Below are positions 34,720 through 34,864 of a DNA stretch of 34,864 bases, piece after piece. The stretch covers positions 1 through 34,864 of the forward strand of contig CALKCJ010000003.1 of NCBI GenBank assembly GCA_938082375.1, read 5' to 3'. The translations under genes and the position numbers were made by a program. The notes under the pieces were generated by a model. The model was given only the letters and a program-made list of their open reading frames with translations. It was not told where the DNA came from and made no database searches. The stretch's first letter is position 1. Every line of letters starts with the position of its first letter. Origin of the DNA: an uncultured Thermomicrobiaceae bacterium. Lineage in GTDB: Bacteria; Chloroflexota; Chloroflexia; Thermomicrobiales; Thermomicrobiaceae.

Positions 34720-34864
34720 GTGTACACGCGCGACGAGATCCGGCTCACCACGCTGGCAAGCTGCGCCGGTTGAGCGGGCAAGCTGGGTCCGGCGGCCCTG
34801 GCGCAGGTTCTGCGCCCGCTCGAACAGCGCACTGACCCCAACCTGCTCGTTGGTCTCCAGACCA
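34720..34864 (+). CDS. selD: selenophosphate synthetase SelD, selenocysteine-containing, truncated by window end
   Basis: SelD makes selenophosphate, the selenium donor for selenocysteine and selenouridine. From GTG 34720 the frame reads [14 protein letters not shown], then TGA (34771-34773), then [30 protein letters not shown] to the window end. The TGA falls on the catalytic Cys/Sec position of SelD, with the essential Lys three residues later (U-A-G-K, as C-x-x-K in Cys-type SelD), so it is read as selenocysteine rather than stop. A TAA just upstream (34714) rules out an earlier start. The bases after TGA can fold into a GGG/CCC-centred hairpin as a bacterial SECIS would. Only the first 48 codons are present. 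This implies that selA, selB and selC exist elsewhere in the genome. Confidence 0.85.

Follow-up and report, generated by a model that had tools for sequence, protein, structure and literature searches.

At the 3′ end of the window, a reading frame with the sequence of selenophosphate synthetase (SelD) runs through an in-frame TGA, which raises the question of whether this is a working selD in which UGA is read as selenocysteine (Sec), or a gene that is broken, read in some other way or started elsewhere. The window, 34,864 nucleotides, is the whole stretch of DNA analysed and makes up all of contig C3 in a genome of 3.36 Mb and 61 contigs. We consider it highly probable (about 97%) that the locus is a functional selD encoding a Sec-containing selenophosphate synthetase in this Thermomicrobiaceae bacterium (Chloroflexota). 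This reading draws on what can be read from the DNA, namely the frame, its homology, the conservation of the UGA, the genes of the Sec machinery and a hairpin under synonymous constraint. The features concerned are as follows.

34633..34661, + strand: putative sigma-70-type promoter, TTGACC-17 nt-TACGAT (consensus scan, kept in congeners)
34714..34716, + strand: in-frame TAA 5′ of selD, limiting the possible starts (sequence)
34720..34864, + strand: 5′ part of selD with a GTG start; 48 of 354 codons lie before the contig end, the gene continuing on contig C39 to C39:1061
34771..34773, + strand: predicted Sec-coding UGA at the catalytic Cys/Sec position, Cys17 in Escherichia coli SelD (3u0o alignment, order-level conservation)
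34800..34816, + strand: bSECIS-type hairpin, stem GGCGCAG/CUGCGCC and loop GUU with G34807 and U34808 (folds, consensus fold, synonymous constraint)

The original prediction held that both sides of the TGA encode SelD in one frame, that the upstream TAA fixes the start and that a promoter with perfect spacing precedes the gene. Translated with UGA as Sec, the frame gives 17 codons from GTG 34720, the UGA as codon 18 and a further 30 residues to the window end, and the predicted coordinates proved exact. The TAA is where it was said to be, and the start codon itself is this GTG, the sole ATG, GTG or TTG between the TAA and the UGA. By consensus scanning of 565 bases on both strands we found one sigma-70-like site against 0.0 ± 0.2 expected; the match is real, and two congeners preserve both the hexamers and their spacing (TTGACC/TACAAT at L031 and TTGACC/TACGAT at L034).

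Only the beginning of the gene lies in the window. The first 141 bases of contig C39 are identical (100%) to window positions 34724-34864, an overlap probably produced by de Bruijn assembly, which leaves such repeats at the ends of adjoining contigs. The genome has no third copy of this end sequence, which speaks against a second locus as the cause of the contig break. The two contigs are joinable through this exact end overlap, with selD split between them. The joined frame comprises 354 residues to C39:1061 with a single internal UGA, is otherwise intact and terminates in UGA itself. Homology to SelD past the window end, a check set beforehand, was found, the full SelD being recovered on C39: against the NCBIfam model TIGR00476 (cut-off 125) the translated protein scores 374 bits over model positions 1-309 of 311, and the frame with its one internal TGA scores 368 bits against the same HMM, placing the product in the SelD family across the whole model. 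Close behind selD lie rsmA/ksgA and ispE (L005, C39:1-2866), and in a congener (L057) the downstream open reading frames are similar in size and order to those of this locus.

The UGA aligns with the catalytic Cys17 of E. coli SelD (PDB 3u0o), in agreement with the prediction that it falls where SelD has Cys or Sec. The alignment covers chain residues 4-333 of the E. coli enzyme, nearly its full length, and the two proteins belong to the same family. Here the motif is U-A-G-K and in 3u0o it is C-G-C-K, so that both have the catalytic Cys or Sec and the conserved Lys three residues later, and differ in having Sec (UGA) here for the E. coli catalytic Cys and Gly for the E. coli Cys19. We also considered, as a doubtful combination, a CxxU motif in many members of the order, in which the Cys three residues before the Sec might form a selenenylsulfide pair, jointly with a nearly invariant and distant hairpin (33 nt). 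In the searchable literature we found no description of either a CxxU pair or a distant SelD bSECIS in Thermomicrobiaceae.

A single base separates TGA from a Cys codon, and the codon might therefore be a nonsense mutation or a sequencing error for TGC or TGT, leaving the gene broken or misread. We compared the position in 40 relatives from the order together with the genome itself, 36 of which have SelD above the cut-off. Among the 35 with a complete SelD N-terminus, each of which was read, 33 have TGA at exactly this codon and the other two (L052 in G031 and L089 in G022) have TGC, encoding Cys. The codons on both flanks of the UGA are likewise conserved as SelD sequence, and the nearest named relative, a Thermomicrobiaceae bacterium metagenome bin (Chloroflexota), has a 94% identical SelD that also contains the UGA. 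We also sampled 121 genomes from the phylum: SelD is present at E ≤ 1e-80 in 97 of them, amounting to 98 copies, of which 89 contain one in-frame TGA, counted by presence rather than by reading each position. The two TGC genes show that the Cys form occurs among relatives, but since the UGA is conserved across the order and widespread in the phylum, and the frame is otherwise unbroken, an error or chance mutation is excluded for practical purposes. The same pattern, an in-frame UGA that relatives share and that stands where homologues have Cys, is that of a selenoprotein gene, and Sec-containing SelD is, as judged from these genomes, the usual form across the Chloroflexota.

An open frame through UGA does not by itself name the residue inserted, and the codon could also be suppressed to Trp or Cys, or belong to a reassigned code. 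Against such a reading, which we regard as very improbable, searching the genome family by family recovered all three components proposed as a check on Sec decoding: selA (532 bits, full length), selB (645 amino acids, 347 bits, C-terminal part included) and a tRNA-Sec (73.5 bits against Rfam RF01852; called tRNA-SeC by ARAGORN, anticodon TCA, hence UCA). SelA, SelB and tRNA-Sec are thus all encoded in the genome. Moreover, among the genes examined, in-frame UGA occurs only at known Sec positions, those of SelD and of two formate dehydrogenases, while selD itself uses UGA as its stop codon; and Cys is the only alternative residue among relatives. A third reading places the normal start downstream, for example at GTG C39:216, and leaves the upstream part unused. 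A standard-code reading frame of 281 amino acids does exist there, and it is the only start that ordinary gene calling could use, which bears out in substance the prediction that the gene is lost to such calling. However, this form has no N-terminal active-site region, which E. coli SelD possesses, relatives conserve SelD sequence on both sides of the UGA, and the conserved promoter lies 5′ of 34720. We therefore give a downstream start hardly any weight, and retain a Sec-encoding selD starting at GTG 34720. The further prediction of UGA decoding as Sec in this organism is supported by selA, selB, tRNA-Sec and the conserved UGA taken together.

The two formate dehydrogenase alpha genes (L081 on contig C19 and L082 on contig C7) have their in-frame UGA at the active site, within NQARI-U-HSSTVPGLG, and in both a strong hairpin with an apical G-rich loop follows the UGA. 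Further selenoproteins may be present in the genome. No selenouridine synthase (ybbB, TIGR03167) scored above its cut-off in the genome, and for this reason SelD probably serves Sec only.

The two relatives with a Cys SelD, L052 and L089, retain selA and tRNA-Sec, apparently having exchanged Sec for Cys in SelD while keeping the Sec trait. In one genus of the same order (g12; G026 and G034) selD, selA and tRNA-Sec are all absent, consistent with a loss of the whole Sec trait within the order.

Bacterial Sec insertion elements (bSECIS) have published limits of an apical loop of 3–9 nt, an upper stem of 4–16 bp, a G at loop position 1 or 2, a distance of 16–37 nt from the UGA and a minimum free energy of at most −7.5 kcal/mol (PMC13188914). 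Folding the RNA 3′ of the UGA, where a SECIS stem-loop was to be looked for, yielded a bSECIS-type hairpin at 34800-34816. Its stem of 7 bp pairs 34800-34806 with 34810-34816, the loop starts 33 nt after the UGA and the minimum free energy is −13.6 to −14.1 kcal/mol; the hairpin thus lies within all of the published structural limits, and SelB is predicted to bind it. Compared with shuffles of its own GC-rich sequence, the hairpin showed no excess stability (z −1.3). RNAalifold recovers this stem as well, with a single compensatory pair; the stem varies so little among relatives that there is almost no covariation. Synonymous divergence across 27 UGA-type genes provides better evidence for the hairpin than fold stability does: it reaches the minimum of the gene over the hairpin, the window of codons +8 to +15 ranking lowest of 183, with a mean of 0.36 for the window starting at +8 compared to 0.58 overall, and a permutation p of about 0.0004 for the overlapping window +6 to +15. 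Neither of the Cys versions, L052 and L089, retains the hairpin sequence. In two UGA-bearing relatives (L054 and L055) the site folds poorly, and their bSECIS elements may be different.

Two other structures were rejected. Folding the first 43–45 nt after the UGA had given a hairpin with loop GGUC at 34786-34789, 12 nt from the UGA, with z of −0.5 to +0.7, and a 60-nt fold had given a longer stem pairing the UGA with bases near 34820; neither occurs in the consensus fold.

Folded for comparison, the E. coli fdhF bSECIS has an apical part, GCAGGUCUGC, that looks similar to that of the hairpin here, GCAGGU.CUGC, with GU at the loop in both. The hairpin here lies about 14 nt farther from the UGA and lacks a bulged U.

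Taken as a working mechanism, the conserved promoter would drive selD, with translation from GTG 34720. On reaching the UGA at codon 18, the ribosome would receive Sec-tRNA-Sec (anticodon UCA) from SelB, guided by the mRNA hairpin at 34800-34816. Standing where E. coli has Cys17, the Sec would then take part in the synthesis of selenophosphate from selenide and ATP, and SelA would use the selenophosphate to form Sec-tRNA-Sec for SelD itself and for the two formate dehydrogenases. Sec insertion, SelB binding of the hairpin and enzyme activity are thus predicted properties of the locus.

Elsewhere in the window, 2574-5123 (− strand) encodes a Cas3-like CRISPR helicase/nuclease in which the HD and helicase parts match, the best full model being type I-G, below its cut-off. 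An ArgD/LysJ-type aminotransferase at 31586-32764 (+ strand) has LysW-aminoadipate semialdehyde transaminase as its best match, below the model cut-off, and possibly takes part in lysine synthesis via LysW.

Sec-containing SelD has counted as a standard selenoprotein of bacteria since at least 2006, and it is one of those found most widely (PMC1794560). In all bacteria with selenoproteins, that 2006 survey of bacterial selenoproteomes recorded FdhA or SelD, and it lists three selenoproteins in Chloroflexi (PMC1794560). The Sec-SelD genes counted there share with the present one the in-frame UGA at the catalytic Cys, the downstream bSECIS, the Sec machinery and the formate dehydrogenase companion; nothing essential differs, the hairpin here, at 33 nt, being close to the upper limit of the usual 16–37 nt. 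In literature of incomplete coverage we found no paper on Thermomicrobiaceae SelD. Since Sec-SelD is normal in the phylum and in many bacteria, the novelty is lower than the original prediction implied, and this is an ordinary, well-supported annotation finding on an arrangement already well known. Its value lies in a corrected annotation, as standard calling would give a SelD that lacks its active-site region, and the gene is moreover divided between two contigs. For the organism, decoding of UGA as Sec is supported, with at least three predicted selenoproteins.
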